Source: a virus
Length of the DNA: 24,143 nucleotides
Strand: one strand, 5' to 3'
Virus record (IMG/VR): IMGVR_UViG_3300048780_000322
Location: 1 to 24,143 of that record
The notes below the pieces were generated by a model. That model had not been told where the DNA came from, did no database searches, and saw nothing but the letters and a program-made list of their open reading frames with translations. The position numbers were made by a program, and so were the translations under genes. Shown here one piece after another: positions 2,587-24,143 of this stretch. The first letter of the stretch is position 1; each line of letters starts with the position of its first letter.

Positions 2587-2776
2587 AGTTGTGAGCGTGT
2601 CCTGTCACTACCGCTCCGCCCTGTTGGGCATCCGGTCAATTTAATGCCGGAGGATTGATTTGGCGACCATTTAAGTCTGCCAAAGCTGCCGGGAATTGCA
2701 AGGACGGCTGTCCACACCCGTTGAGCGAAGTTTCAACCCGGTTATACACAACGTCAATTGCCGGAGGGCGAAGAAA

Positions 2777-3460
2777 ATGCGAGGATGGTGTGTCGGAGGG
2801 AACTTGAAAAAGGCGAGAGAATTCGTGAACACCGCGCCGGGTGATGATCTGCTGGATTTTGTTGGCGCGAAACGGTTTAAGACGATTCTCGTTGATCCTC
2901 CCTGGCAGTTCCAGAACCGGACGGGGAAGATTGCGCCCGAACATAAGCGACTAGCACGATATGGGACGCTGAAGCTGGACGACATCAAGGCGATGCCCGT
3001 TGCAAAGATCGCCGCTCCCACCTCACATCTCTATCTCTGGTGTCCAAACGCGCTTCTCCCGGAAGGGATTGAAGTGATGAAGGCGTGGGGATTCAAGTAC
3101 AAAAGCAATCTGGTATGGCACAAAATCCGCAAAGACGGTGGTTCGGACGGTCGCGGCGTGGGATTTTATTTCCGCAACGTGACGGAACTCATCTTGTTCG
3201 GAGTGCGAGGACCAGATGCCCGGACGCTGAAGCCGGGACGAACGCAGGTCAATTACCTGTCCAGTCGGAAACGGGAGCACTCCCGCAAGCCGGACGAACA
3301 GTACAAGATCATTGAAGCGTGCAGTCCGGGACCGTTCATTGAACTCTTCGCGCGAGGCGAGCGGAAGGGATGGACGATATGGGGAAATCAGGCTGACGAG
3401 TCCTATACGCCAACCTGGAAGACCTATTCAAACCATTCACAAAGCGTCGCTGCCGATTAA
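2777..3460 (+). CDS. MT-A70 family DNA adenine-N6 methyltransferase
   Basis: This 227-aa enzyme probably transfers a methyl group from S-adenosylmethionine to adenine N6 in DNA. The catalytic DPPW motif is at residues 40-43 (KTILVDPPWQF). Conserved MT-A70 blocks follow: LYLWCPNALL near 86-94, NLVWHKIRKDGGSDGRG near 111-127, a T-E-L-I-L-F-G-V-R-G strand, and the C-terminal SRKPDEQYKIIEACSP...ELFARG...GWTIWGNQ. The ATG at 2777 was chosen over a TTG 27 codons upstream because GGAGGG lies eight bases before it. It converges with the BglII-type endonuclease gene; their stops share the bases TTAA, so they form a restriction-modification pair in which this enzyme would protect the recognition site. 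Length is normal for the phage/bacterial members. Confidence 0.85.
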   Translation: MRGWCVGGNLKKAREFVNTAPGDDLLDFVGAKRFKTILVDPPWQFQNRTGKIAPEHKRLARYGTLKLDDIKAMPVAKIAAPTSHLYLWCPNALLPEGIEVMKAWGFKYKSNLVWHKIRKDGGSDGRGVGFYFRNVTELILFGVRGPDARTLKPGRTQVNYLSSRKREHSRKPDEQYKIIEACSPGPFIELFARGERKGWTIWGNQADESYTPTWKTYSNHSQSVAAD

Positions 3461-4047
3461 GCCTTTGGGTCATATTTCTTCTTGGTAATCCCGAACGCGA
3501 GAACCGGACAACCTCCGGGCGCGTTGTTGTTCATTTTCGGAATGAGCTTTGACATGTGTGTGGTTGACTGGCCGGCGGCGGTCTTCTTTCCGACTTCAAT
3601 GAACAACTCCTGAAGCTCATCGGCTCTCGTGATGATGATTCCCACACTGAGAACATTCAAGTCAAACAGCAGACGGAACGACGTAAGGTCGCGGTCAAAG
3701 AATGGGTCTTTGTTGTTCCATTCGGTTTCAATGGCAACGCGGTCCTTGTAGTAGTCAACGTGATGGGTCGGTGCAAGCGTTTGAATTCCGTCCGCCGTGA
3801 CGCTGATCTCGAAACTCTTTTCGACCCAGCCTCGGCCATAGAAAAGATCGTCAATGGATTGAGAGATGGGCGATTTTCTACCGCCGGGTTTTAAGATATG
3901 GCTTCTCTTTAGGGAAAATTCGGTGAGCACGGCGATCAAGTCGTTCCAGTGGTCCCGAAAATCAGTCTTCAAAATAGCGCAGGCGTGATGGCGTTCTTCA
4001 ATCTGATAGGTGTCGCGGATCTCTTGCGGTAGAAGATTGATACCCAA
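3457..4047 (-). CDS. BglII/BstYI-family type II restriction endonuclease
   Basis: This 196-aa protein shows the catalytic core of the BglII/BstYI endonucleases. HHVDYYKDRVAIETEWNNKD places D98, E107 and E109 with the same spacing as D84, E93 and Q95 of BglII. The third position is Glu here, as in BamHI. DPFFDRDL, the R-L-L-F-D-L helix and SVGIIITR follow, and a Thr-Thr-His plus NNNAPGGCPVLAFGIT block ends the fold as in the family. The start is TTG at 4047, preceded by AGGGGG six bases away, with an in-frame stop just upstream. Its TAA overlaps the methyltransferase stop. It would cut double-stranded palindromic DNA, perhaps RGATCY or AGATCT by family analogy; specificity cannot be read from the sequence. 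Such a system can exclude competing phages or stabilise its carrier. Confidence 0.82.
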   Translation of the reverse strand: MGINLLPQEIRDTYQIEERHHACAILKTDFRDHWNDLIAVLTEFSLKRSHILKPGGRKSPISQSIDDLFYGRGWVEKSFEISVTADGIQTLAPTHHVDYYKDRVAIETEWNNKDPFFDRDLTSFRLLFDLNVLSVGIIITRADELQELFIEVGKKTAAGQSTTHMSKLIPKMNNNAPGGCPVLAFGITKKKYDPKA

Positions 4048-6625: not shown

Positions 6626-7516
6626 TTATGTGTTGCTGTTCCGACCTTTTATGAGGGAAAGGATCTTCTGATAGAGGGCGACGATCTGCGTGAGAATTGA
6701 GATCTTCTGTTTAAGCTGCGCGACGACCTCGGGCGCGAGGTCCATGAACGTCCACGCCTCCCGGACAAATGGAATATAGTTTGCTCCGAAATATCCGTTG
6801 CCGTTCTGTCCCCACTCGGCTGACCATGAGTTCCTGAAATAGATATAGTTCTCGTCATATCCATATGCGAGGATGGCGTGTCCGGATACGACGGTCGCCG
6901 GCGGTCTGAGCGGAAGAATGTCGGCAGCGGCCCATGATGTCGTTCCGTTCGCCGCTGTCCACCATTCATTCCCGACGTTCACGCCGAGAAGGACGACCTT
7001 ATTTTGATAGATCGCCTGCTTCAGTCCGGCGATGGATAGATCGGTGACGGAGACATATGATTTGACGAGACGATTCTTCGCAACATCAAATGCGGCCTGT
7101 GGGATGAGCGCCGCGTTCGCGTAGGTGGGAGTGTCGAGCGTAATGTCATTCGGGAACTGAGCGTTGTCCGAAACGCCATATTGCTTTGCTTCTTTCAGTG
7201 CTTGGCGGTAATATGTTCCGTCTCCTGCCACGCCGTCATCCCTCTTGCAGAGCGCATAAAGGAAACGGGGAGAGTAGTCGTATGAATATGCGCCGCTGTC
7301 CGTGTACATCATTCCTGCGGCGGTCGCGTGGCCGACACACGACGGCTCTTGCGCTTGCATAAGAACGGGAACGATGGAAAGGTCGGTTGAGTATGAGGCG
7401 GGGATGGCCGCCGCCGCACCGACAATCTTATTTACTTTTTCAAGGGTGAAATCTCTCTTGTCTCGCGGGGACGGAATATGCCCGAGGTTCGTGAAGGCTT
7501 GCATTCCCTTAATCAT
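6626..7516 (-). CDS. Papain-like (C1 family) cysteine peptidase
   Basis: This 296-aa protein has a complete papain set: Q54 (oxyanion) six residues before C60 in QAQEPSCVGHATAAG, H213 in VVSGHAILAYGYD, and N229 in YFRNSWSAEWG, followed by the G-x-G-Y-F end strand. A preceding YSTDLS...PVLMQ segment resembles the entry to the mature domain. The C-terminus carries a Leu/Ile-rich helix (VVAQLKQKISILTQIVALYQ), possibly a membrane or oligomer contact. I chose the ATG at 7516 because the 47 codons upstream are not protein-like. No signal peptide is seen. It would cut proteins; its place beside the holin-like gene and the tail genes suggests lysis, virion maturation or host-surface attack. It is divergent from the plus-strand gene at 7630. 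Confidence 0.85.
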   Translation of the reverse strand: MIKGMQAFTNLGHIPSPRDKRDFTLEKVNKIVGAAAAIPASYSTDLSIVPVLMQAQEPSCVGHATAAGMMYTDSGAYSYDYSPRFLYALCKRDDGVAGDGTYYRQALKEAKQYGVSDNAQFPNDITLDTPTYANAALIPQAAFDVAKNRLVKSYVSVTDLSIAGLKQAIYQNKVVLLGVNVGNEWWTAANGTTSWAAADILPLRPPATVVSGHAILAYGYDENYIYFRNSWSAEWGQNGNGYFGANYIPFVREAWTFMDLAPEVVAQLKQKISILTQIVALYQKILSLIKGRNSNT

Positions 7517-7629
7517 GTAATCTTTTCGGGAAATGTCGAGGAATGGCCTGGGGATAACTCGGCTTGCAATACCGCCGCATCGGTATAGAGTGAGAGAGGA
7601 ATAAAGGTCGAAATCTACTTTATAAAGAA

Positions 7630-8271
7630 ATGGGAAATGCAATAGTAATCGCCGCATTGATTCAAGCGCTCACGCAAGAAGTGAGTCTGCTTGAACAGGA
7701 ACTGGCACAGATGCAGGCGTCAAGCACGGTGGCAACGAGCACGTATGTCCCACCGGTGACGATCAGTATGACAGTTCAATCAACGCCGGTCGTCGAGCCG
7801 GTGACACAAACAATAACGCAGAACAATATGCCAGAAGAGATAGGGACCGCTCCCGCTCCGCAATCGATCTCCGTGACGTTCGCAACGTCAAGCGAGAATG
7901 AAGGATTGGTGACGGTGAAGAACACATTAGGGGTTCCGGTGAGAATTGTGAATCTTAATGTTGACGGAACACTGGCGGGATTCACGATTGGAGAAATGTA
8001 CGGAAAGGGATATGTATATCCTCCGTCGTTCACCGATACGCACGGAGAGACCTTCAGCGTGTTCACCTGTACGGGATTGGGTTCGCTCGGAATGGCGAAT
8101 CTTGGTTCGGGTGGAATTGTTGACCCTTGCGTGAGACGGGACGCGCACCTTCCGAAGAATGAGCTCCAAGCTGGCGAGACGATGATTCTCCGGTATACGG
8201 GAAACCCGACGAAGGTAACGTATCAAGCGGGAAGCATCGTGGATCTATCGGGAAACGACGTTCAGTTCTAG
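7630..8271 (+). CDS. Lone plus-strand beta-rich protein, possibly surface-exposed
   Basis: The 213-aa product begins with an uncharged hydrophobic helix (MGNAIVIAALIQAL) running into a Glu/Leu-rich coiled segment, then a Thr/Pro/Val-rich linker to about residue 75, then a beta-rich domain that includes VTVKNTLGVPVRIVNLNVDG and two cysteines (FTCTG, DPCVR) that could form a disulfide. The composition suggests an anchored extracytoplasmic protein, but no lipobox or charged signal-peptide start is present. It is the only plus-strand gene inside the virion module, divergent from the peptidase and converging with the 622-aa virion gene on a shared CTAG. This is the usual setting of an independently expressed cargo gene. 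Function unknown. Confidence 0.65.
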   Translation: MGNAIVIAALIQALTQEVSLLEQELAQMQASSTVATSTYVPPVTISMTVQSTPVVEPVTQTITQNNMPEEIGTAPAPQSISVTFATSSENEGLVTVKNTLGVPVRIVNLNVDGTLAGFTIGEMYGKGYVYPPSFTDTHGETFSVFTCTGLGSLGMANLGSGGIVDPCVRRDAHLPKNELQAGETMILRYTGNPTKVTYQAGSIVDLSGNDVQF

Positions 8272-12220: not shown

Positions 12221-13252
12221 TCATAAGCCGAAGTAGTACCACGGTTTGCTAGAACTGGACTTTGATGTCCCTGTGTCGGGATAAGCCTTATAGACAGACT
12301 GTGATATTTGGTCAGGATTGATGTCTGGATATTTCGTTTGAAGCTGAAGAATGAATTGTTCTCTTGTTTCGGCTGGAGTGGTTGCGGTACCGTTTATCGT
12401 CTTCGGATTTGAAAGGTCAGACTGGAAGGAATTTACACGAGTCTGTTCAGCCTTTGTTAAACCTGTCGTTGGGTCAGGAGTGGAAGTGGCTGAAGGAGCT
12501 TTCGGACTTGCTGGGATAATCGCTTTAAATGTCTGAGTGGTCGGGTCCCATTGATAGGTCGCGCCGGTCGTGCTTCCCTTGATAGTCTTGGGCGCTGCGG
12601 CTGCGGTTTTCGTTGCTGTCGCTGCTTCTGTGGCAAGTTGTTTTGCCTGTGCTTCGAGAGCGGCAAGTTTGGCTTTGTTCGCGGCGGTGTTCTGAGTATT
12701 GTCCGCCGTTTCGCGCGTGACGAGATCCGTGACCTCTTTCAGTTTGTTGGCATATTCGGTCTGATAGTTCTTGATGTCGGCATTCGCAAGTGTGGTCACG
12801 GTGTTATTCCTTCCCACGCGCGAAGATTCGTCGAGCCACGGGTTGTCGTTGATGTCGCCTTGGGCTTTTGCGAGGTCATTCTGCCTTCCGGTGATCGTGT
12901 TTTGAAGCTGGTCAAGCCCGGCGGCTGAATATGCTGAGTTGTAGAGATCGCTTTCAGATTGTGTCGGCGCGGCAGTTAGGGTTCCAACCGCATCGCTATA
13001 CGACTTGTATCCCAGAGATTGGGCTACTTGGTCTTCGGCAGTTTGGACATCAGTCGGTGCGGCGCTTGTGTCCGGCATTCCGGCTGCGGAACGAAGCCCC
13101 GCGATGCGGGTGTTGTATGCATCGATGCTTTCGCCTGGCGCAAGGGCGTATTGGTTCGCGGTGATGCCGGTCTGCGGATCGGCTGAAGTATTTCCGTTCG
13201 GGAGATTGACTACCGGGGCTGTGGGAGCTGTAGGAATGGCGGTTGGGTTCAT
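12221..13252 (-). CDS. Ala/Thr-rich coiled-coil virion protein
   Basis: The 343-aa product opens with a Pro/Ala/Thr linker and then ALAPGESIDAYNTRIAGLR. A long helical coiled segment covers about residues 115-225; it contains INDNPWLDESSRVGRNN, a block I recall from phage virion proteins near the tail. An Ala/Thr-rich stretch is followed by YQWDPTTQTFKAI and a C-terminal helix YPDINPDQISQSVYKAYPD. No enzyme motif is visible. It lies between the adaptor-like protein and the HNH virion protein, so a tail-tip or internal role is likely. It ends in a TGA that is followed at once by a second in-frame TGA. Confidence 0.65.
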   Translation of the reverse strand: MNPTAIPTAPTAPVVNLPNGNTSADPQTGITANQYALAPGESIDAYNTRIAGLRSAAGMPDTSAAPTDVQTAEDQVAQSLGYKSYSDAVGTLTAAPTQSESDLYNSAYSAAGLDQLQNTITGRQNDLAKAQGDINDNPWLDESSRVGRNNTVTTLANADIKNYQTEYANKLKEVTDLVTRETADNTQNTAANKAKLAALEAQAKQLATEAATATKTAAAAPKTIKGSTTGATYQWDPTTQTFKAIIPASPKAPSATSTPDPTTGLTKAEQTRVNSFQSDLSNPKTINGTATTPAETREQFILQLQTKYPDINPDQISQSVYKAYPDTGTSKSSSSKPWYYFGL

Positions 13253-13253
13253 A

Positions 13254-14012
13254 TTAGAGGTTGAAGTTTCCTATCGGGCTTTCGTTGTTCATTGAACGAT
13301 TATTGTTGAACAGGTCAATACTGTTGAAAAATGGGCGGTTCTGAGAACCCTTCTCCGCGCGACGTTCGCCGATGGGCTTCCACACGTTGTCAAGAAGCAT
13401 CATTCCCCGCGCCTCTTGGTCTTTGGCCCCTGCGGTGTTGTTCTTCTTGTCGCTTGCCAATGCTTCGGAGTAGGCGAGAAGAATGATCGCAGAGTTGCCG
13501 GAGTTCTCCTGGTTGTCTGTTGACGGAGAGAAAGGAAGGAGGTCGGTGGAATTGACTAAGGTCGGCGCGCGGAGCTTGCCGGAGATGTCCACTTCCTGCC
13601 CGACTGACACCGCAGAGGGGTTGAAGAAAATGAACCGTTCATGCTCCGTCCAGATGTTCGAGGTGTCGTTCGGATAGTCGGCAAGAAACTTCTGGAAGTC
13701 TGCAAAGAGGACCTTCTTGAACTCTGCCGTTCCCTGGTTGATCGCGGGAACCTCAAATCGGAACGCGCTTTCGTCCTCAAAGGTATTCGGGTAGTCCACA
13801 TATCCCGCCGTGATCATGTCGCTCGTGAGTGTGAACTTATAGGTCTTCTCGGTGAACGTCCAAGGTTTGTAATCCCACGCGCGCTTGGCGGCGTTGTTAA
13901 TATACCCGTCGATGTCAGCCTGGGAAAAGAGCTGGTTCGTCCCGTCGAGTACGTCCGTAACGCTGGTATTTAGTTCTCGGCAAAGCGCGATTTCTGATTC
14001 TGAAAGGATCAT
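13254..14012 (-). CDS. Head-to-tail adaptor-like protein
   Basis: The 252-aa product begins with a helical part, FSQADIDGYINNAAKRAWDYKPW at about residues 28-50, and continues with a beta-rich middle in which FTLTSD...GYVDYPNTFEDES follows. This arrangement (helices, then W-x-F...YxxYPxxF) resembles podovirus adaptors such as T7 gp11 and P22 gp4, which join portal and tail. The C-terminus is helical again. It precedes the coiled-coil protein by one base and follows the spike-like gene, which fits a tail-connector position, although the usual adaptor-before-nozzle order is not kept here. The leader has AACCCACCACA before the ATG, without Shine-Dalgarno. The family assignment is by pattern only. 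Confidence 0.6.
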   Translation of the reverse strand: MILSESEIALCRELNTSVTDVLDGTNQLFSQADIDGYINNAAKRAWDYKPWTFTEKTYKFTLTSDMITAGYVDYPNTFEDESAFRFEVPAINQGTAEFKKVLFADFQKFLADYPNDTSNIWTEHERFIFFNPSAVSVGQEVDISGKLRAPTLVNSTDLLPFSPSTDNQENSGNSAIILLAYSEALASDKKNNTAGAKDQEARGMMLLDNVWKPIGERRAEKGSQNRPFFNSIDLFNNNRSMNNESPIGNFNL

Positions 14013-14070
14013 TGTGGTGGGTTAATTTAAGTGTAGAGGTTTCATATTCAATGTCTAGGTGTGCATAGAA

Positions 14071-14586
14071 TCAGTGATTAAGGATGAGATAGTTCAAGCT
14101 TGAGGTGTCGGTGGAACTGCTGCTTGAGAACGTCACACTTCCGGCGGACTGGGAAAAGATGTTTATCTCTCCCAGTGTTCCCCCAGCAAAATTGCGAGAA
14201 AAGATAATAACAGAAGAAGTGGTTATCGCCGAGTTGGTCACGGTCACCACTCCGCCGCCGCCTAAACGTCCCGAAGTGCCGAACACCATTGATGGTGCGG
14301 AGAGCGCGATGCTGTTCCACTGGTTATTGATGTAGAGGTAGAGATAATACACGCCACCCGTGTAGACGAATTGGATCTGTTCCTGAAAGGTCTGGGGGAC
14401 GGCGGTAGGAGCGGCCGAAAGGTACTGCTGAGTGCTTTGGAGCTGAAGCAGGACAGGGACGAACTGTGCGAGAGAATAGCTTTGCGTGACAGGAGTGGGC
14501 GCACCTCCCTCGGGTTCGGTGGCGGCTGAATCTTCTGATTTGATGGCACCGTTTGAAAGTGCCGCTGAGAATTCGGGTTCCGTCAT
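14071..14586 (-). CDS. Tail spike/fibre-like protein
   Basis: This 171-aa protein has an acidic, Pro/Gly-containing N-terminus, a central helix (LAQFVPVLLQLQSTQQYL), an aromatic patch FVYTGGVYYLYLYINNQW, and a C-terminal beta domain with VTVTNSAITTSSVIIFSR followed by GGTLG and a SSTDTSSLNYLI end. The last block follows a common phage tail-spike C-terminal domain pattern (VTVxNxxIxxxSxVxxSR...SxDTSxxNYxI). Its ATG overlaps the TGA of the nozzle-like gene in an ATGA, so the two proteins are made in a coupled way. It likely contacts the host surface or caps the tail. Confidence 0.65.
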   Translation of the reverse strand: MTEPEFSAALSNGAIKSEDSAATEPEGGAPTPVTQSYSLAQFVPVLLQLQSTQQYLSAAPTAVPQTFQEQIQFVYTGGVYYLYLYINNQWNSIALSAPSMVFGTSGRLGGGGVVTVTNSAITTSSVIIFSRNFAGGTLGEINIFSQSAGSVTFSSSSSTDTSSLNYLILNH

Positions 14587-16277
14587 GTTTGGTTATAGCC
14601 GAGATCATTGAACACCCAGTACGACGTGAGGAGTTCGAGTCCGAGATTCGCGGCGATGCCATCAAATACAACCTTGATAAGGAATTGTTTGCCCTTGATG
14701 CTGTTCACACTGAAGAAGATATTTTTGAGCTGCGCGAGATTGGTGATGGTCTGGCGCTTCACAAGCACGAACGGCTGTACCTGGACGGCAAGCCCGTAAG
14801 CGGTGTAGTTCGTGGTTGAGCGGTCAAGCGTCCATGTTTCATGGCTTAATCCTTCATTCGCAATCGCGGTGATGTGCGCGACGAATCCGGCATTGTTGCC
14901 TTCAAGAATAGTCACTTCATCTCCCACCTGCGCGTCATACGCTCCAGATGCGGTCGCGTCCACGACGAGTTGGTTGTAGGCAGTGGAGGCGTTGCTCGTC
15001 GTGATGTGTCCCCAAAGCTGGCGCTTGAAATTATAGATTGAGAGCGAGACATTGAAACTGATTGCCGGGGCATCGGTGATGGAGTTTAAAATCCCCAAGT
15101 TCAAAACCACGGCTTCAACGGTCTTATCGGTCGGCCCGAAATAGAGACGTTGGTATTTGATTCTCCCAAGTCCCAACTCTTCGGAAACGAACATCGCGGT
15201 TGAGGGAGGTTGCGCGACGAGCGCGGCGACATGATTCACACCTCCCGCCGTATACCCTATCGTGATGCGATTGTATGATGAGTCGAGAAATACCGAGTAG
15301 ACGAAAAGGTTATAGGTTTCACCCGTAGGAACGGGGATGTACGCCCATGCCTTTCGCGCGATCATATACAGATAGACACCCGGCTTCATCTTTCCATATT
15401 GCTTCGTATTGCCGGAAGTGGTCGTGATGGTAAAGACGAGCATATCGTTCACGAGAAGCATCTGTTGGGGAAGCACCCAAGTATTGTCGTAATTGTTGAA
15501 CGAAAGCAGGTCATCAAAGACCCCAAACAATTCGCTCACAGTTGTTCCATTCGTGACGAGGACTTGACGTTGTGTCTTCACGACCCAGTTTTCACCGTAG
15601 GTTGCGATGGCGAGTATTTGTCCGGGCGTCCATTTCCACGGCACTTTCGAGCGAAGGGAGTTTCCATCCCATAAGATGATCGCACCTTGATTGTAGAGAT
15701 TTGCTCCGATGAGAATCCCCGTCGGACCGGCCTTAATTGAGGCGATTGTCATATTGGAAGGAAGCGTGAACGCATTATCACTATAGGTCCCGTCGCTGAA
15801 AACGCAGGCGACTTTGTTATTGTTCGCGATAAGAATGAGGTCTTCGTACCACGTCATCGGATGATTCCCGCCGTCGAGGCTTTGGAAGGTGTCGTTCCAT
15901 GTCGTGCCGTCGTATTTGCCGAGGTGGTTGTTTGAGGTTCCGCAGGAATAGAAAAGATTTCCATACTGGTCTGCCATCATGCCCGATCCGAAGCCTCCCG
16001 GAGAATGGACGTTCGTGAAGTCGTACGCGCCGGGCGTTGTCTCCTTCCATATCTGGCCGGAATTGTCCTGGAGGTAGAGATAATTGTTCAGGACGGCTTG
16101 ATGCCGCACCTCTCCCAACGTGCTGAAGGTGGTGCTGTTCGCCTTATCAACCATTGAATACATCGTGGCAATGCCAAACTTGGAAGGAATGAATCCTTGG
16201 GAATAGAAATTCGTCCCGAGAATCGGGAGATCCGAGAATCCGTCAAAAGCTCCAAATGGGACGACGCGAAGTGCCAT
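14583..16277 (-). CDS. Nozzle-like tail protein, beta-propeller character
   Basis: This 564-aa product consists largely of beta strands with repeating turns such as YGNLFYSCGTSNNHLGKYDG, YEDLILIANNNKVACVF, TGILIGANLYNQGAIILWDG and ENWVVKTQRQVLVTNG, a blade-like periodicity in the first 330 residues. A beta-sandwich C-terminus follows. Podovirus tail nozzles (T7 gp12, P22 gp10) have such propeller cores, and the gene lies with the adaptor-like protein, so this role is the best guess. The leader is G-free (CAATCTCAAATAAC) and there is no Shine-Dalgarno site. Full length is plausible, with no break or frameshift seen. Homology to a named nozzle is inferred. Confidence 0.65.
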   Translation of the reverse strand: MALRVVPFGAFDGFSDLPILGTNFYSQGFIPSKFGIATMYSMVDKANSTTFSTLGEVRHQAVLNNYLYLQDNSGQIWKETTPGAYDFTNVHSPGGFGSGMMADQYGNLFYSCGTSNNHLGKYDGTTWNDTFQSLDGGNHPMTWYEDLILIANNNKVACVFSDGTYSDNAFTLPSNMTIASIKAGPTGILIGANLYNQGAIILWDGNSLRSKVPWKWTPGQILAIATYGENWVVKTQRQVLVTNGTTVSELFGVFDDLLSFNNYDNTWVLPQQMLLVNDMLVFTITTTSGNTKQYGKMKPGVYLYMIARKAWAYIPVPTGETYNLFVYSVFLDSSYNRITIGYTAGGVNHVAALVAQPPSTAMFVSEELGLGRIKYQRLYFGPTDKTVEAVVLNLGILNSITDAPAISFNVSLSIYNFKRQLWGHITTSNASTAYNQLVVDATASGAYDAQVGDEVTILEGNNAGFVAHITAIANEGLSHETWTLDRSTTNYTAYGLAVQVQPFVLVKRQTITNLAQLKNIFFSVNSIKGKQFLIKVVFDGIAANLGLELLTSYWVFNDLGYNQT

Positions 16278-16278
16278 G

Positions 16279-16518
16279 TTATTTGAGATTGAATGACGTT
16301 ATGTTGATTCCGACGACGCGGAAGAAAAGGTAGGTGATAATCAGACCCGCCAACGTAAAGAGGAACCACTTAATCGCGGTCTCCGTCCACTTTGCGGCGA
16401 AATGCTCCTGAGACGCCTTAATGAATGTGTCGAGTTTGATCTCAACCCGATCAACCGCCTCCGAAGTGTGTTTGATGTCGTCTTGCATATGGGCGATGGT
16501 TATATTAACGTCTTCCAT
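16279..16518 (-). CDS. Coiled-coil membrane protein, XhlA/holin-partner-like
   Basis: The 79-aa product has an N-terminal amphipathic coiled region (INITIAHMQDDI-type heptads, residues 4-40) and one hydrophobic segment (AIKWFLFTLAGLIITYLFF, about 48-66) with a short tail. This is the layout of XhlA/hemolysin-type proteins that work with a holin, but it would also suit a virion-associated membrane protein. It is placed between two tail genes, not in the lysis cluster at 6400-7516. It begins one base after the LamG protein stop and its leader lacks a Shine-Dalgarno site. Confidence 0.6.
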   Translation of the reverse strand: MEDVNITIAHMQDDIKHTSEAVDRVEIKLDTFIKASQEHFAAKWTETAIKWFLFTLAGLIITYLFFRVVGINITSFNLK

Positions 16519-16519
16519 T

Positions 16520-18841
16520 TCATTGGTATTTGTCCGTATAGTCGGTGTTCTGTTTTTCGTATTTATCGGAATAGGTCGTTCCTTGCGGGGTGTACTTGCC
16601 GGAATAGGAAGTTCCCTGATGGGTGAACCGGCTTGCGAACACGGACTGAAGACCGTTTATAAATAGTTTGATTCGAGCGATCGCGGAAACGGCAAGTGTA
16701 CGAACGAAGGTGCGTTGTTTGGAAAGTGAAACGGCACTTGTAGCGCTCTGTATGATGGCTCGGAGAAGAAGTCTGCCCTTGCTGAGTGTGACGGAGATCG
16801 CGGCGGTGACGGCCAAGGTGACATTGTGCATTCCCGCTTTTGAAAGCGAGACGACTGCGCTTACTGACTGGGTCAGAGTTTTAAATGACAGCCGCCCTTT
16901 AGCGAGCGTCACTATGGCGGTAGCAGATTGTGTGATGGCTTTAAGGAACAATCGGCTAGCCGTCATGGTCGCACTCGCCGTTGCGGAGATAGTCAGAGTT
17001 GCGAACTTGAGAAGCCCCTTCGCGAGCGAAACGACTGCGGTTGCTGATTTGGTGATGGTGCGGTAAAACGTCGCTTGTTTTGCAAGGGAGACCACTGAAG
17101 TGGCCGATTGCGTGAGTGTCCTATATGCTATCTTGAGGCGCGCGAGAGAAACTGATATGGTCGCCGTGACGCTGATGGCGACGGCCTTAATCCAATTCTT
17201 TGAAATGGACGCAGTTGCGGCTGCCAATTGGGTGATGTTCTGCGTGTAGGTGATAGGGGTTGAATAGGTAACCTTGAGGACTGGAGTATTGAATCCCCAA
17301 TAATTTGCCTCCGCTGGTGCGCCATTTCCTATATCATATGTCGCCTCACGGACGGAAAAGAACGTATTGCCCGTTTTACTTATTTGCGCTATCCCCGAAG
17401 AATTGAGTGTCCATGTGAAAACACCCGATGCGGCGAGCGAAGTCTGTCCGATCGCGGTTGAAAACGCAATTGTACCCCCTTTATTAAAATCCGTACCAGA
17501 GACCGTCGTTCCTCCAGTGCTGGAATAGATGTTGTAAGCCTCGGTATTCGTTCCCCCGCTTGAAATAGCCGCACCGGTAAGCGTTAGCGTGGCGGCGGCG
17601 ATGTAAACACCCGACCCCAGTGAAGACGTATCGAACACCAAAAATCCACGTTCAATGAAGTAATTGGTTCCATTCCATGCTGATTGTACGTATGCAGGCG
17701 CGCTTCTTTCCGTACCAGCGCTAGCAGCATGAATAGTCGCCCAGGGCGTTCCTTGGTCATATACCGAACCGTATGATGTTGCGGAGAAAGATGCCATATT
17801 CCGTGTCAGAGTGACGCTGGCTAGTGCGGATACAGCAAGTGAGACGGTTTTCAATAATCCCTTCGCCAGCGTGACAGATGCGGTTGCTGTGACGGAGAAT
17901 GCCCGATATGCGGAAAGGAGTCTTGAAAGGGAGACCACTGAAGCGGCTGATTGTGTGAGCGTCCTATAAGCCGTCTTGAGGCGGGAAAGAGCAACACTCG
18001 CGGTAGCGGCAATCGTTATACCAAGAACCTTTGTCTTTGCCTTTGAGAGGGATATGACGCTCGTCACGGATTGCGCAATCGCTCTAAAGTAGCTTGACTG
18101 TCTAACGAGTGATATAGAACCTGTTGCTGATTGCGTGATGGCCTGATTGTAGGTGGTCGAGGAAGAAAAAGGATATTGAAGACCCGCCCCGCCGTTGTAT
18201 AGTTGCGTTATTTCGGTGCTAGTAAGCGCTCTGCTCCAAACACCAAGCTCATCTATGAGTCCACTGAATGCACGAAACTTTGTGGTGTGGTTAGAGTCAG
18301 TTTCATATCCTACACTCGCTACACCAGAGTACGGACTCGCAGGAGTATTAGTAGCACCAGTCGTTTGAACCCCATTTTTGTAAAAGTATAAAGTTCCCGA
18401 ACGCCTTATCATCGCAACGTGAACCCATACGCCATTTGACAGCGTGATGCTTGGGTCTTCCCAAGCAACCGACCCAAAAAGACCAATCAATTTACTTCCA
18501 CCACCCCCATAGTTTGCGCCAACGCCAAGCCCCCACCCCGCAGAGTCATCGCCGTTGTAAAAAATAAATCCGTTGTCCGTAGCTTGAGGAATAACCGGCT
18601 TGATCCATCCCGCGACCGTAAAATTGTCTACGACAGAGGTGGGGTTTGCGGAAAGAGCAACTGTTTCGGGGGTAGTGTCTGTTTTTAAGAAATTACCAGC
18701 GCTGCCTATAATTCCAGTTCCCCATTTTGTTCCCGAACCAGCGAACGTCCCGGTGTTTCCATTACCCGTTGCATCGCTAACGGTAGTACCCGTATTTTCA
18801 TCAAACTTCCAATATGCAGCTATATTATCGGTAAGTGCCAT
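16520..18841 (-). CDS. 773-aa LamG-domain fibre protein with 16 short repeats
   Basis: Residues 1-225 form a LamG/concanavalin-like lectin domain: it opens NIAAYWKFDENTGTTVSD, has a core HVAMIRRSGTLYFYKNGVQ, and ends with the canonical DELGVWSRALTSTEITQLYN. Residues 231-350 are six 20-aa repeats. Residues 351-531 form a separate beta domain that includes RGFLVFDTSSL, in the style of DNRLRE-type modules. Residues 532-732 are ten more 20-aa repeats. The C-terminus has three 11-aa repeats of the type QGTxYSxKY. The repeats follow YRTLTQSATSVVSLAK. The protein is probably a tail fibre or surface adhesin with a carbohydrate-binding tip, on the outside of the virion. An ATG with AAAG upstream starts it; a hairpin lies before it. 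Confidence 0.78.
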   Translation of the reverse strand: MALTDNIAAYWKFDENTGTTVSDATGNGNTGTFAGSGTKWGTGIIGSAGNFLKTDTTPETVALSANPTSVVDNFTVAGWIKPVIPQATDNGFIFYNGDDSAGWGLGVGANYGGGGSKLIGLFGSVAWEDPSITLSNGVWVHVAMIRRSGTLYFYKNGVQTTGATNTPASPYSGVASVGYETDSNHTTKFRAFSGLIDELGVWSRALTSTEITQLYNGGAGLQYPFSSSTTYNQAITQSATGSISLVRQSSYFRAIAQSVTSVISLSKAKTKVLGITIAATASVALSRLKTAYRTLTQSAASVVSLSRLLSAYRAFSVTATASVTLAKGLLKTVSLAVSALASVTLTRNMASFSATSYGSVYDQGTPWATIHAASAGTERSAPAYVQSAWNGTNYFIERGFLVFDTSSLGSGVYIAAATLTLTGAAISSGGTNTEAYNIYSSTGGTTVSGTDFNKGGTIAFSTAIGQTSLAASGVFTWTLNSSGIAQISKTGNTFFSVREATYDIGNGAPAEANYWGFNTPVLKVTYSTPITYTQNITQLAAATASISKNWIKAVAISVTATISVSLARLKIAYRTLTQSATSVVSLAKQATFYRTITKSATAVVSLAKGLLKFATLTISATASATMTASRLFLKAITQSATAIVTLAKGRLSFKTLTQSVSAVVSLSKAGMHNVTLAVTAAISVTLSKGRLLLRAIIQSATSAVSLSKQRTFVRTLAVSAIARIKLFINGLQSVFASRFTHQGTSYSGKYTPQGTTYSDKYEKQNTDYTDKYQ
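16646..17248 (-). repeat. Ten tandem 20-aa (60-bp) repeats, block B
   Basis: Residues 532-732 of the LamG protein divide into ten units, the first 21 aa and the rest 20 aa long. The consensus is an aromatic residue, then RTLTQSATAVVSLAKG and three variable residues. DNA copies are diverged, so this is an old protein repeat rather than a recent DNA tandem array. Confidence 0.8.
17792..18151 (-). repeat. Six tandem 20-aa (60-bp) repeats, block A
   Basis: Residues 231-350 of the LamG protein hold six units of the same 20-aa repeat as block B. The two blocks are separated by a 181-residue nonrepetitive beta domain. Confidence 0.8.
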
Positions 18842-18856
18842 GTTCTTTATTCAAAG

Positions 18857-18878
18857 AGGGGCAGATGATTCCGCCCCT
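18857..18878 (-). promoter_or_regulatory. GC-rich intergenic hairpin before the LamG gene
   Basis: AGGGGC and GCCCCT form a perfect 6-bp stem with a 10-nt loop in the gap between the 121-aa gene and the LamG gene. On the minus strand only CTTT follows, so it is at most a weak terminator. mRNA processing or stability is an alternative role. Confidence 0.45.
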
Positions 18879-18884
18879 GCGTCA

Positions 18885-19250
18885 TCATGTCTGCTGTAAC
18901 TTGATCGTGAACTGAATCTTGTCGCCTGCCGCGAGAACAACTCCAGTGAAGTCGCCTTTGACGTAGAGGTTGCCCGTCGAGGAAGCGTCGAAGAGTCCGG
19001 CGTTCGTTATCGTCTCGCCGGAGACGGACGTGAGGGTTGAGACGTTCTGCAAAGTGTCGTTCGTGACGGTCGTTGTGACGATCGTCTGAGTCGATGCCGC
19101 GCGCTCTGCGGTGACCTCGGTAAAGAGAGTCGTGTCAGTCACGCCTGACGTTCCTGCGCCAGTTCCCCAACCAACATACGGAGTGGTGACTGCCGTATTG
19201 GTATTCGCTATGAGTTTTGCCCGCCCTGTGTTTGTAAGGACCGTAGCCAT
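18885..19250 (-). CDS. Phage fibre/collar-type structural protein
   Basis: The 121-aa product starts MATVLTNTGRAKLIA. The pattern YVGWGTGAGTSGVTDTTLFTE, then ...TNDTLQNV..., then ITNAGLFDASSTGNLYVKG and GDKIQFTIKLQ is typical of small phage structural proteins annotated as tail fibre or collar. Its first 14 codons overlap the end of the 70-aa gene upstream. The leader CAATCTCAAACA is almost G-free; the same CAATCTCAAA precedes the nozzle-like gene. It is likely part of the mature virion, near the tail. It follows the decoration-like and 70-aa genes in the head-proximal order. Confidence 0.7.
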   Translation of the reverse strand: MATVLTNTGRAKLIANTNTAVTTPYVGWGTGAGTSGVTDTTLFTEVTAERAASTQTIVTTTVTNDTLQNVSTLTSVSGETITNAGLFDASSTGNLYVKGDFTGVVLAAGDKIQFTIKLQQT

Positions 19251-19420
19251 TGTTTGAGATTGCTTAGTTTGATTTTTATGTATGAGACGACCTTTTGAAT
19301 CCGATTGCCGCCGACGATCACGCCGAGATCTTCGCGCTTGCCGTTGGCGCGAATGATCGTTGCCTCGAACGTGAACTGCTGTCCGGTTTGCGTATTCATG
19401 GTGGAGTAATTGAGGGGCAT
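19208..19420 (-). CDS. Small hypothetical protein in virion module
   Basis: The 70-aa product includes FTFEATIIRANGKREDLGVI and a basic C-terminal helix. No motif is recognised. The ATG at 19420 has AGGA six bases upstream, inside the 3' arm of a strong hairpin; an in-frame ATG at 19399 is an alternative. The last 43 bp overlap the next gene. Because the site is sequestered, expression may depend on translation of, or RNA folding after, the gene upstream. Confidence 0.55.
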   Translation of the reverse strand: MPLNYSTMNTQTGQQFTFEATIIRANGKREDLGVIVGGNRIQKVVSYIKIKLSNLKQWLRSLQTQGGQNS

Positions 19421-19423
19421 CAC

Positions 19424-19448
19424 CCGTCCTGCCCGAAGGCAGGAACGG
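19424..19448 (-). promoter_or_regulatory. Strong TTCG-loop hairpin overlapping a ribosome site
   Basis: On the minus strand CCGT-T-CCTGCC-TTCG-GGCAGG-ACGG forms a 10-bp stem with one bulge and a stable UUCG tetraloop. The AGGA next to the start at 19420 is part of the 3' arm. There is no T-tract after the stem, so a translation or RNA-stability role is likelier than termination. Confidence 0.6.
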
Positions 19449-19459
19449 ATGAAGTGCGA

Positions 19460-19957
19460 CTAGAGTGTCGCGTACTGCGGGAAGAACTCGCCAACGGTGT
19501 TGACGTACGCTGCGTTCGGAACGACGGTCGCATCGTCGAGATTCGTGGAGCCGCCAACAAAGTTACCAGTGCCGGTGGGATTCACGATGACGAAGCCGAT
19601 TGCTACGTAGCCATCAGCGACCGAAGGGAAGACAACCGCGCCGAGAGTCGCTGCCTCGGTTCCCATCTGCGTCGCAAGCGTGCCTGCGGCATTGACGGAG
19701 AACACAAAGACATTGAACTTGGCGTTTGTGACGGTGCCGGCGAGGGCCGCGCAGTCAGCCGTGGTCTTGGAATAGACCTGGCCGTCGATCATGAAATAGA
19801 TCGTGTTCGCGAACTTCGCGAGCGCCGATGTAGATCCATGGATGGCGAGACCTCCGGTGACGAGCAGAGCGTTCACTGTTGCACGCTGCAACTTGTCGAA
19901 TAATCCAGAGAGTTCGGTCTCCATGTTCGGGAAGTTGATTGATTTTGTTCGTGCCAT
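19460..19957 (-). CDS. Capsid decoration-like structural protein
   Basis: This 165-aa product begins with an N-terminal helix (ELSGLFDKLQRATVNALLVTGG), then a beta domain with AKFANTIYFMIDGQVYSKT, TNAKFNVFVFSVNAAGTLA, ADGYVAIGFVIVNPTGTGNF and NLDDATVVPNAAYV. I have seen this pattern in small phage structural proteins immediately after the capsid gene. Position directly downstream of the major capsid gene suggests a head decoration or stabilising protein. The 20 nt before the ATG contain no G and no Shine-Dalgarno site. It lies between two hairpins (19986-20022 and 19424-19448). Confidence 0.65.
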   Translation of the reverse strand: MARTKSINFPNMETELSGLFDKLQRATVNALLVTGGLAIHGSTSALAKFANTIYFMIDGQVYSKTTADCAALAGTVTNAKFNVFVFSVNAAGTLATQMGTEAATLGAVVFPSVADGYVAIGFVIVNPTGTGNFVGGSTNLDDATVVPNAAYVNTVGEFFPQYATL

Positions 19958-19985
19958 TTGAATAGATTGATTGATTGCGACCTTT

Positions 19986-20022
19986 ACTCCAATCCCCGCT
20001 TGTTTAGGGCGGGGATTGGAGT
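19986..20022. promoter_or_regulatory. 14-bp perfect inverted repeat after the capsid gene
   Basis: ACTCCAATCCCCGC (19986-19999) and GCGGGGATTGGAGT (20009-20022) are exact complements around a 9-nt loop. It sits between the capsid stop (20031) and the decoration-like gene. Neither strand has a T-tract after the stem, so it may shape mRNA decay or partial termination and thus protein ratio. Confidence 0.65.
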
Positions 20023-20030
20023 GCTAGTGA

Positions 20031-20642
20031 CTAGGTCCAGGAGCCGGTGCAGAACAGTTCTGCCGCGAACTTGCGGCGGTTGTCCTTCGTGACAGCGCCA
20101 TAGACGTAAAGGTCTTTGTACGCTGCACCGAAGTTACCAATGAGCTGCTCTTCAATTTCCGCTTCAAGAACTTTGTCCGCAAACGTCTTCCAGTTCTTCT
20201 GGATGGCGAGTGCGTGATAGCCGTTCGTGTTGTCTCCGGTGAGACGGGCCGAGCTGAAGACCTTGAAGCCTGCGAGCATGGTGATGAAGCCTTTCTTCAC
20301 CAATTCCTCGTAAGCTGCGGGGACGTTCAGCACGACACCAGTCGCCTGCGGGATAGCGTCTGCGATTTCGGTCGGGAGCACAAGATTGCGCTCATCTTCC
20401 GGAACCTCGTTTGCGTCGAGCATCTGGCGAAGCTGGAGCATGGTGACGAGCAGGTTCGACTTCGTGATCGCGAGCGGGGTTACCGCTTCGATCGCGTAGG
20501 TCGCGCCTGCACCGATCACGCCGCCCGTGTACTGGGTGACTTCGTTCAGGTCGTCGGTGATCGTGATAGCGGTCGTGGACGAATAGGTCGCGACGCGATA
20601 CCACTGGGTGTGACCGAGGGCTTTGAAGCCACGGCCGACCAT
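20031..20642 (-). CDS. Major capsid protein, C-terminal part only
   Basis: The 203-aa frame includes an inserted small beta domain at its start (GRGFKALGHTQWYRVATYSS...TITDDLNEVTQY...GAGATYAIE) and then an HK97-fold capsid C-terminal part: LLVTMLQLRQMLDANEVPEDERNLVLP, then ...YEELVKKGFITMLAGFKVFSSARL, then WKTFADKVLEAEIEEQL. The frame stays open upstream for 21 more codons (VTGSSTTFTSAM is clearly protein-like) to a stop at 20706-20708 without any start codon. Capsid proteins are normally 300-400 aa, so about the N-terminal third to half is missing. The truncation point meets the opposite-strand cassette at 20708. It could be a prophage remnant or an assembly join. Confidence 0.7.
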   Translation of the reverse strand: MVGRGFKALGHTQWYRVATYSSTTAITITDDLNEVTQYTGGVIGAGATYAIEAVTPLAITKSNLLVTMLQLRQMLDANEVPEDERNLVLPTEIADAIPQATGVVLNVPAAYEELVKKGFITMLAGFKVFSSARLTGDNTNGYHALAIQKNWKTFADKVLEAEIEEQLIGNFGAAYKDLYVYGAVTKDNRRKFAAELFCTGSWT

Positions 20643-20707
20643 CGCTGATGTGAACGTCGTGCTGGAGCCGGTGACGTTAGGGGAGCTGCTTGAAAGGACA
20701 GCTCGTT

Positions 20708-20872
20708 ATGGCAAAGCCGAACATCGTGTACGTCATCCAAGAGGAAGGCGACAAAAAGTATTGGCACCGAGCCGGCGTCGCGTTCGTCAATCGGGACGGC
20801 TCGCTCAACCTGAAGCTCGACCTGTTCCCGAACCTGCAAATGCAAGTCCGCGAACAGAAGGACGAGAAGTGA
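20708..20872 (+). CDS. Small conserved phage/plasmid protein (54 aa)
   Basis: The product starts MAKPNIVYVIQEEGDKKYWH and includes GVAFVNRDGSLNLKLDLFPN, a pattern (GVAF.N.DGSLNLKL) common in small mobile-element proteins of unknown role. AAAGGA lies nine bases before this ATG, which is why it was chosen over a TTG 18 bases upstream. It starts the plus-strand cassette with a zinc ribbon and a CHC2 protein. The stretch directly upstream is antisense capsid coding, so no promoter of its own is evident. Confidence 0.75.
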   Translation: MAKPNIVYVIQEEGDKKYWHRAGVAFVNRDGSLNLKLDLFPNLQMQVREQKDEK

Positions 20873-21025: not shown

Positions 21026-21583
21026 ATGCTCGACTTTAATTGCATCAAGGAAATCAAACTCACTGATGTTCTCGCGCGCTATAAGATCGCATTACGCTTC
21101 AAGGGCGATTACGCGGTATGCGCGTGTCCGCTCCCGAGCCACAAAAAGGGAGATAACACGAAAAGCTTTTCGATCAACCTGGCGGGTAATTACTTCCGCT
21201 GTTTCTCTGATTCCTGCAACGCGAACAACGGCGGCAAGCGCGGCGGGGATGTCATCAACTTCGTCGCGCTGATGGAAGGCTGCCGGGAGAAAGACGCGGC
21301 GCAAAAACTGGCCGACTGGTACGGGGTACAAAATGAAACGCCCCAGCACATAGCCGAGGCGTCGAAAGAAAAACCGAAAACCGAACCACAAAAGACCTAT
21401 CCAGAGTCTAACGGTTCGGGTGATAGCGTCAAGTACACCGAGAAGGTCAGAGTATGGTTCGATGAGCTATGGCCGCGCCGGGACGGTGAGAGCGATTTAG
21501 ACTGGCGCAAACGAGTTCTCCGGGCTGTCATAACGGAGCTGATTCGGAACTATAAGTCCGGGAAAGCTGGTCGGACTCTATGA
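21026..21583 (+). CDS. CHC2 zinc-finger protein, stand-alone primase-type
   Basis: This 185-aa protein contains a DnaG-type CHC2 zinc finger at residues 27-74: CACPLPSH, about 20 residues, then FRCFSDSC, and a closing GGDVINFVALMEG. In DnaG the finger binds single-stranded template DNA. Here the TOPRIM catalytic core that should follow is absent; the rest is a charged linker (EKPKTEPQK) and a helical C-terminus ending VITELIRNYKSG. GAGGAGG lies six bases before the ATG, so the start is firm. It is the last gene of the plus cassette and its final 56 bp overlap the RGRP-type gene on the other strand. It may recruit a primase or replisome part, or be a truncated primase. Confidence 0.78.
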   Translation: MLDFNCIKEIKLTDVLARYKIALRFKGDYAVCACPLPSHKKGDNTKSFSINLAGNYFRCFSDSCNANNGGKRGGDVINFVALMEGCREKDAAQKLADWYGVQNETPQHIAEASKEKPKTEPQKTYPESNGSGDSVKYTEKVRVWFDELWPRRDGESDLDWRKRVLRAVITELIRNYKSGKAGRTL

Positions 21584-22901: not shown

Positions 22902-24143
22902 TTACGCTGAAGACGCAAGGAATCTATTTATCTTTTCAATCACATCTTTCCGCTTTGTCCCGTAGCGTTGGAGGGAGTGCTTGATGAGCTTAGTGGGGTT
23001 GGCTTCATCGCCACGTTTTTGGATCGTGGGCCAGCCGACTATTCTCCGGGCGGTGGGAGCGTCGGTGATGGTGCGGCAGTAAAACTCGTATCGCGGGAGT
23101 GAAGTAATGTGCGTGGCCTGGATCTGTTCCTCGTTCCAATTCTCCTGAATTGCCTTGGCGTCCTCGCCGGAAACATTGAAGGTGATCTGGGTTGGGCAGT
23201 TTGAGAACACGTCTTTCGCGAACGGGAGCTGGTACATTCCCTGTGATGCCAAGACGAGCGTGATGGCATATTTGCGACTTTCAGCAAGGAGAGTTCCGAA
23301 CCTGCCGCCGTGGATGAAATTATGCACCTCGTCTGCGACGAGCATAAAGGGCGGCCGGGATTTCTGCTTTTCTCTCTTGAGCGCAGAGATAGATACCATT
23401 GAAACGATCAGTGAACCAAGGATCTGCGCGATCTCCTCTCCGAGCCGTCCTTTTGAAAACCGGCACACGACGATCTTCTTTGTGTTCATGATCTCAAGGA
23501 AGTCGAGAGATTGCGGTTGCCCGATGATGGGGATAATGGGCGGCCGGAGGAGCTTGCCCACTTTATTGATCGGCGGAGAGAACTTTGACATCTGCTCCGA
23601 GTCCCGAAGTTTCTCGTCGTACTGCTCTTTGAACATTTGAAGTAAGGGATTCTCGGTTGCGGCCAAAATCTTCTCTCTGAACTTGTCGTCGGCCATGAAG
23701 CGGAAGATGTGGACCGGCGTCGGATGGTCATAATATTCGCACACGGCGTCAATGGCGTTGATGATGACGCGCGCGGATTCGTCGCCCCATGCTGAACCCG
23801 CAAGGGATTTGAATGTTGTAAATAATGACTCTTTGCCAAGCTCTAATTCCTCTGGCGAATTGAAGTGGAGCGGATTGAACGGCGGCACGAGCGACGCATC
23901 GGGGTCTATCCAGATGAAATCCCGCATCCGGCTTTTGGGAATGAGCTTTGCGATCTGGTCGGCGGTGTCGCCGTGAGGATCAATAAAAAGTCCGCCGTTG
24001 CCCTGGCGGATGTGTTCGATGAACAAGTTGACGAGCAGGGTGGATTTGCCCATGCCGGACATCCCCTCGATATTGATATGCCTGGTGGAGTCGATGAAGA
24101 ACTCCTGATTAGTGATGGAATCTCTGCCGAGTGAGATTTGCAT
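22902..24143 (-). CDS. HerA/TraD-like P-loop ATPase (type IV coupling or packaging type), N-terminus at window edge
   Basis: This 413-aa protein has a Walker A GMSGMGKST at residues 27-35, a GLFIDPHGD block at 51-59, PPFNPL near 87-92, Walker B FMLVADEVHNF at 266-276 and an LASQG sensor at 298-302. These are the marks of the HerA/FtsK/TraD superfamily, with the conjugative-coupling signature IDPHGD...FNPL. Members move DNA through a membrane pore or into a capsid using ATP. The ATG lies on the last three bases of the window, so whether the real protein is longer cannot be seen. A membrane or VirB8-like N-terminal part could be missing. It heads a minus group with the zinc protein, the helical protein and the RGRP protein. 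Confidence 0.85.
   Translation of the reverse strand: MQISLGRDSITNQEFFIDSTRHINIEGMSGMGKSTLLVNLFIEHIRQGNGGLFIDPHGDTADQIAKLIPKSRMRDFIWIDPDASLVPPFNPLHFNSPEELELGKESLFTTFKSLAGSAWGDESARVIINAIDAVCEYYDHPTPVHIFRFMADDKFREKILAATENPLLQMFKEQYDEKLRDSEQMSKFSPPINKVGKLLRPPIIPIIGQPQSLDFLEIMNTKKIVVCRFSKGRLGEEIAQILGSLIVSMVSISALKREKQKSRPPFMLVADEVHNFIHGGRFGTLLAESRKYAITLVLASQGMYQLPFAKDVFSNCPTQITFNVSGEDAKAIQENWNEEQIQATHITSLPRYEFYCRTITDAPTARRIVGWPTIQKRGDEANPTKLIKHSLQRYGTKRKDVIEKINRFLASSA

Follow-up and report, generated by a model that had tools for sequence, protein, structure and literature searches.

A capsid gene broken against an early operon in a metagenomic phage record: a probable artefactual join

Genes on the two sides of the break

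The stretch analysed here (the window) is one entire IMG/VR virus record of 24,143 bp. The record is a metagenomic contig classed as linear and is therefore probably a fragment. DNA and protein searches with the break region and the capsid protein matched no phage in the named collection, and relatives were drawn from other IMG/VR contigs and from four contigs of metagenome-assembled genomes, which bear the labels Thermoanaerobaculia, Woesebacteria, Paceibacterota and 'bacterium'. Two features lie far from the break. An MT-A70-type adenine methyltransferase (plus strand) adjoins a BglII-type restriction endonuclease (minus strand) at 2696-4047, a phage-borne restriction-modification-like pair that also occurs together in G002, G007 and G008. 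A papain-family (C1) cysteine protease, an unusual enzyme for a phage, is encoded at 6626-7657 beside a holin-sized gene in the lysis region and is kept in G002, G008 and G017.

The late (head and tail) block occupies 12532-20676 on the minus strand and is colinear, up to the break, with the relative L002 (94.5% nucleotide identity over 8.2 kb). It ends within the gene for an HK97-type major capsid protein (20031-20676, minus strand), of which the C-terminal ~212 codons remain, comprising an inserted beta domain and the C-terminal half. This assignment draws on 98.6% amino-acid identity to L002, on alignment, on a fold match to Che8 gp6 and on the profile phrog_267 (E 2.7e-12), which is matched by 67/67 full-length relatives and places the fragment in that branch of the HK97-type family. 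From its first ATG the frame spans 20031-20642. The first-pass annotation had the frame open for another 21 codons above this ATG (RAVLSSSSPNVTGSSTTFTSA), and so it is, up to a TAA at 20706-20708. Its description of the extension as protein-like is right for 12 codons, NVTGSSTTFTSA, which align with relatives, and wrong for the upper nine, RAVLSSSSP, which alignment with full-length relatives reveals to be leader sequence read backwards.

The same annotation had predicted that 100-200 residues of capsid N-terminus are missing, and alignment puts the loss at residues 1-148 of the full-length relatives. By alignment and structure model, the lost part holds an N-terminal helix, E-loop-like strands (44-87) and a long helix (103-126); the window copy is without the N-arm, E-loop and spine helix that, with the A and P domains, make up the complete HK97 fold. 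The short protein would probably be unable to form a shell. The model of a full-length relative (pLDDT 85), built from 67 sequences in place of a poor one built from 16 (pLDDT 51), matches HK97-fold capsids, the best being the major capsid gp6 of Mycobacterium phage Che8 (PDB 8e16), the nearest solved relative of the full-length capsids in both sequence and fold. In contrast to gp6, members of the family have an additional domain of ~80 residues inserted, similar to phage fibre domains, and the window copy differs further in its missing first 148 residues. The inserted beta domain (about residues 137-215 of L003) splits the family's match to gp6 and resembles tail-fibre domains (phrog_2712 and, weakly, the pyocin side fibre PDB 25ve). 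Just past the capsid stop, a perfect 14-bp inverted repeat, ACTCCAATCCCCGC / GCGGGGATTGGAGT (19986-20022), is apparent by eye, with no T-run on either strand.

The right-hand block opens on the plus strand with the leader of an early operon (20677-20707), recognized by comparison of leaders and by an exact 27-base match to L040, a record of another phage. As first read from the sequence, its ribosome-binding site AAAGGA and the ATG at 20708 open a plus-strand frame. This is the operon's first gene, a small conserved ORF (20708-20872, plus strand) with 94% amino-acid identity in G003 and homologues in G005, G006 and G008. It is followed by a CHC2 zinc-finger protein (21026-21583, plus strand; Pfam PF01807, the DnaG-type primase zinc-binding domain), whose counterparts in relatives are 36-73% identical and hold the same operon position. 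A VirD4/TraG-like ATPase (22902-24143, minus strand) at the right end of the record marks the block, which is colinear in relatives. Such an ATPase is also present in the early region of G003, G004, G005, G008, G009 and G010, with DNA transfer, packaging or motor function as candidate roles; relatives also encode a distantly related second copy (21-26% identity), located about 1.5 to 3 kb farther outward.

The plus-strand genes had been said to leave no room for a promoter, and the operon indeed stands without its upstream region. In L040 the sequence leading into the leader reads TTATCCCCA, kept upstream of the leader in several relatives, and next, closer to the leader, a -10-like CATGCT; this conserved, promoter-like stretch, presumably the promoter in the relatives, is missing upstream of 20677, and a promoter scan at the break gave no signal above chance. 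Folding of the leader at 20677-20707 places the ribosome-binding site in a hairpin loop or close to one, as it does for the leaders in G003, G006 and G017. We rejected this hairpin as a cause or signal (folding z only about -1.2 to -1.3).

Position of the junction

Comparison with L002 and L040 fixes the break in the minus-strand capsid gene at 20677-20679, inside the proposed interval of 20643-20690. L002 reads GTGACGTTA before the break and CCGGAGG after it; it tracks the window through this sequence to 20679, then diverges as CCGGAGGCATCG and stays open as capsid up to its contig end, which the window does not. On the other side, an IMG/VR pattern scan with 20 bases from the right of the break matched a single record, L040, which reads CATGCTTA before the joint and GGGGAGCTGC after it. 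The 27 exact bases common to the window and L040 run from the TTA at 20677 to 20703, and in L040 they form the native leader of its early CHC2-primase operon. Neither L002 nor L040 is the window's own strain; they serve as proxies for the two sources. They overlap by three nucleotides only, TTA, and the join is therefore placed at 20677-20679. The junction itself was absent from every other IMG/VR record returned by the scan: it occurs in no relative, and each side continues differently elsewhere.

Microhomology of at least 3 nt has about a 5% chance of occurring at a random join. No k-mer of 14 nt or longer is repeated around the break within the window. The tetranucleotide composition of the right block fits that of the left (L1 0.165 against a mean of 0.194 for left windows), a comparison of low power because the right block is just 3.4 kb.

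The interval between the blocks in relatives

Both blocks are present, in the window's gene order and strands, in four relatives (G003, G006, G009 and G010), where the CHC2 operon and the capsid gene lie about 11-16 kb apart. The interval holds the portal, the terminase (found in each of them, with a weak signal in G003), the capsid N-terminus and early genes. In G006 the VirD4-like ATPase comes first, then the CHC2 operon, about 8 kb in which most genes are small, the small and the large terminase (phrog_1482, phrog_5653 and Pfam Terminase_3), a 558-aa protein, a 227-aa protein, the 362-aa capsid and tail genes; the other three are colinear with it. The 558-aa and 227-aa proteins, which no family model matched, are putatively the portal and the scaffold from their positions. 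A search of the window record found no relative of the terminase or of the portal-position protein, in keeping with the first-pass view that both are absent. Identity to the window differs by block (63% for the capsid and 92% for VirD4 in G003; 75% and 70% in G010), a difference that would also be expected from natural mosaicism.

The wider set of capsid loci agrees with the comparison that the first-pass annotation had proposed, in which related genomes should show a longer capsid preceded by portal and terminase. The N-terminus (148 residues more) is reached in 94 of 96 related loci, the other two (L002 and L027) running off contig ends. The capsid frame has 362-391 codons in every relative unless a contig end cuts it, and a portal relative lies upstream on the same strand in 64/64 capsid loci with at least 4.5 kb upstream. 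On these counts the window's break is far from a chance matter. Seen against the four relatives, the missing part is an internal block between colinear flanks.

The notion that the capsid gene had been cut by an inserted opposite-strand cassette does not survive this comparison. In the four relatives the CHC2/VirD4 block has the same side and the same strand about 11-16 kb away; the supposed cassette is therefore no insertion, and what the window lacks is the stretch that separates two otherwise colinear blocks.

Origin of the join

Either the join is very recent or it has no biological origin, as the truncated capsid is still under purifying selection: against L002 it shows dS 0.10, dN 0.008 and dN/dS 0.08, and the neighbouring late genes show dN/dS of 0.06-0.27. 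Such constraint should not last long in a phage lineage that has lost its portal and terminase.

The likeliest origin of the join is an artefact of assembly or of the library (or else a dead-end deletion of very recent date), and we do not take it for a working gene arrangement. With moderate confidence we favor the reading that the record joins two blocks of one phage type, normally about 11-16 kb apart, and that the join arose outside the cell. The late block, which breaks off within the capsid gene, lies to the left of 20677; the early CHC2/VirD4 block, which sets in within its leader, occupies the record from that position. The join could have formed as a chimeric DNA fragment during library amplification or, alternatively, when assembly or scaffolding software bridged two contig ends that shared a short overlap; the joined record would then not describe a working genome. 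In favor of an artefact are the visibility of both parents in other records, with an overlap of just 3 nt; the genes found between the flanks in the four relatives; the near-universal capsid N-terminus and upstream portal; the uniqueness of the junction, with the leader pattern found only at its native place in L040; the lack of decay after loss of essential genes; and the linear, fragmentary nature of the contig. Against it, real illegitimate recombination likewise leaves short microhomology. The lack of longer repeats near the break and the mere 3 nt common to the proxies count against a repeat-driven de Bruijn misjoin by k-mer collapse, which we set aside. A union of two unrelated genomes was also set aside, the like composition giving no sign of one, at the low power noted above. 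Simulation of viral metagenome assembly has documented chimeric contigs well, with joins mainly between related viruses (PMC3901335). As in those cases, two genuine phage segments are joined here without support in relatives; unlike them, the segments here keep a colinear order, and a single genome could have supplied both.

A true and very recent internal deletion, with about 11-16 kb lost through illegitimate recombination at TTA, is a serious but doubtful alternative. It would have left a defective genome, copied only with an intact helper phage. The microhomology fits this, as do the like strands, order and composition on both sides, the lack of any repeat on which a k-mer assembler could go wrong, and the very fact that the junction was assembled into a contig, for which some reads must support it. 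But the deletion costs the capsid N-terminus, portal and terminase, no second record has the junction, and no relaxed selection is seen. The loss of an internal block at short microhomology between intact flanks resembles, at the level of sequence, defective (internally deleted) phage genomes. We consider it improbable that this is a genuine helper-dependent deletion phage, one that retained its genes for tail, lysis and early functions but shed packaging along with most of its head module, and that became frequent enough for assembly from a metagenome.

It is very improbable that the arrangement is normal for the lineage, with a short capsid divergent from the early operon and head genes elsewhere. 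The open frames on the two flanks are intact, and each block consists of real phage genes, but the closely related late block of L002 runs through the capsid past the break, the retained part is without N-arm, E-loop and spine helix, and a normal short capsid is refuted for all sampled relatives by their frame lengths and by the 94 of 96 loci that reach the N-terminus. Insertion of a mobile cassette is equally hard to credit: the abrupt end within the capsid gene, followed by a gene on the opposite strand, suggested it, but the block is a conserved early one, placed and oriented with respect to the capsid as it usually is, the capsid N-terminus does not reappear past it, and no repeats mark the edge.

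The record should accordingly not be taken to represent a phage whose capsid gene is short or one with a divergent capsid/primase arrangement, and gene-neighborhood or genome-size inferences drawn from it would be wrong. The real genome would exceed the record by about 11-16 kb and, in addition, by any sequence past both ends.
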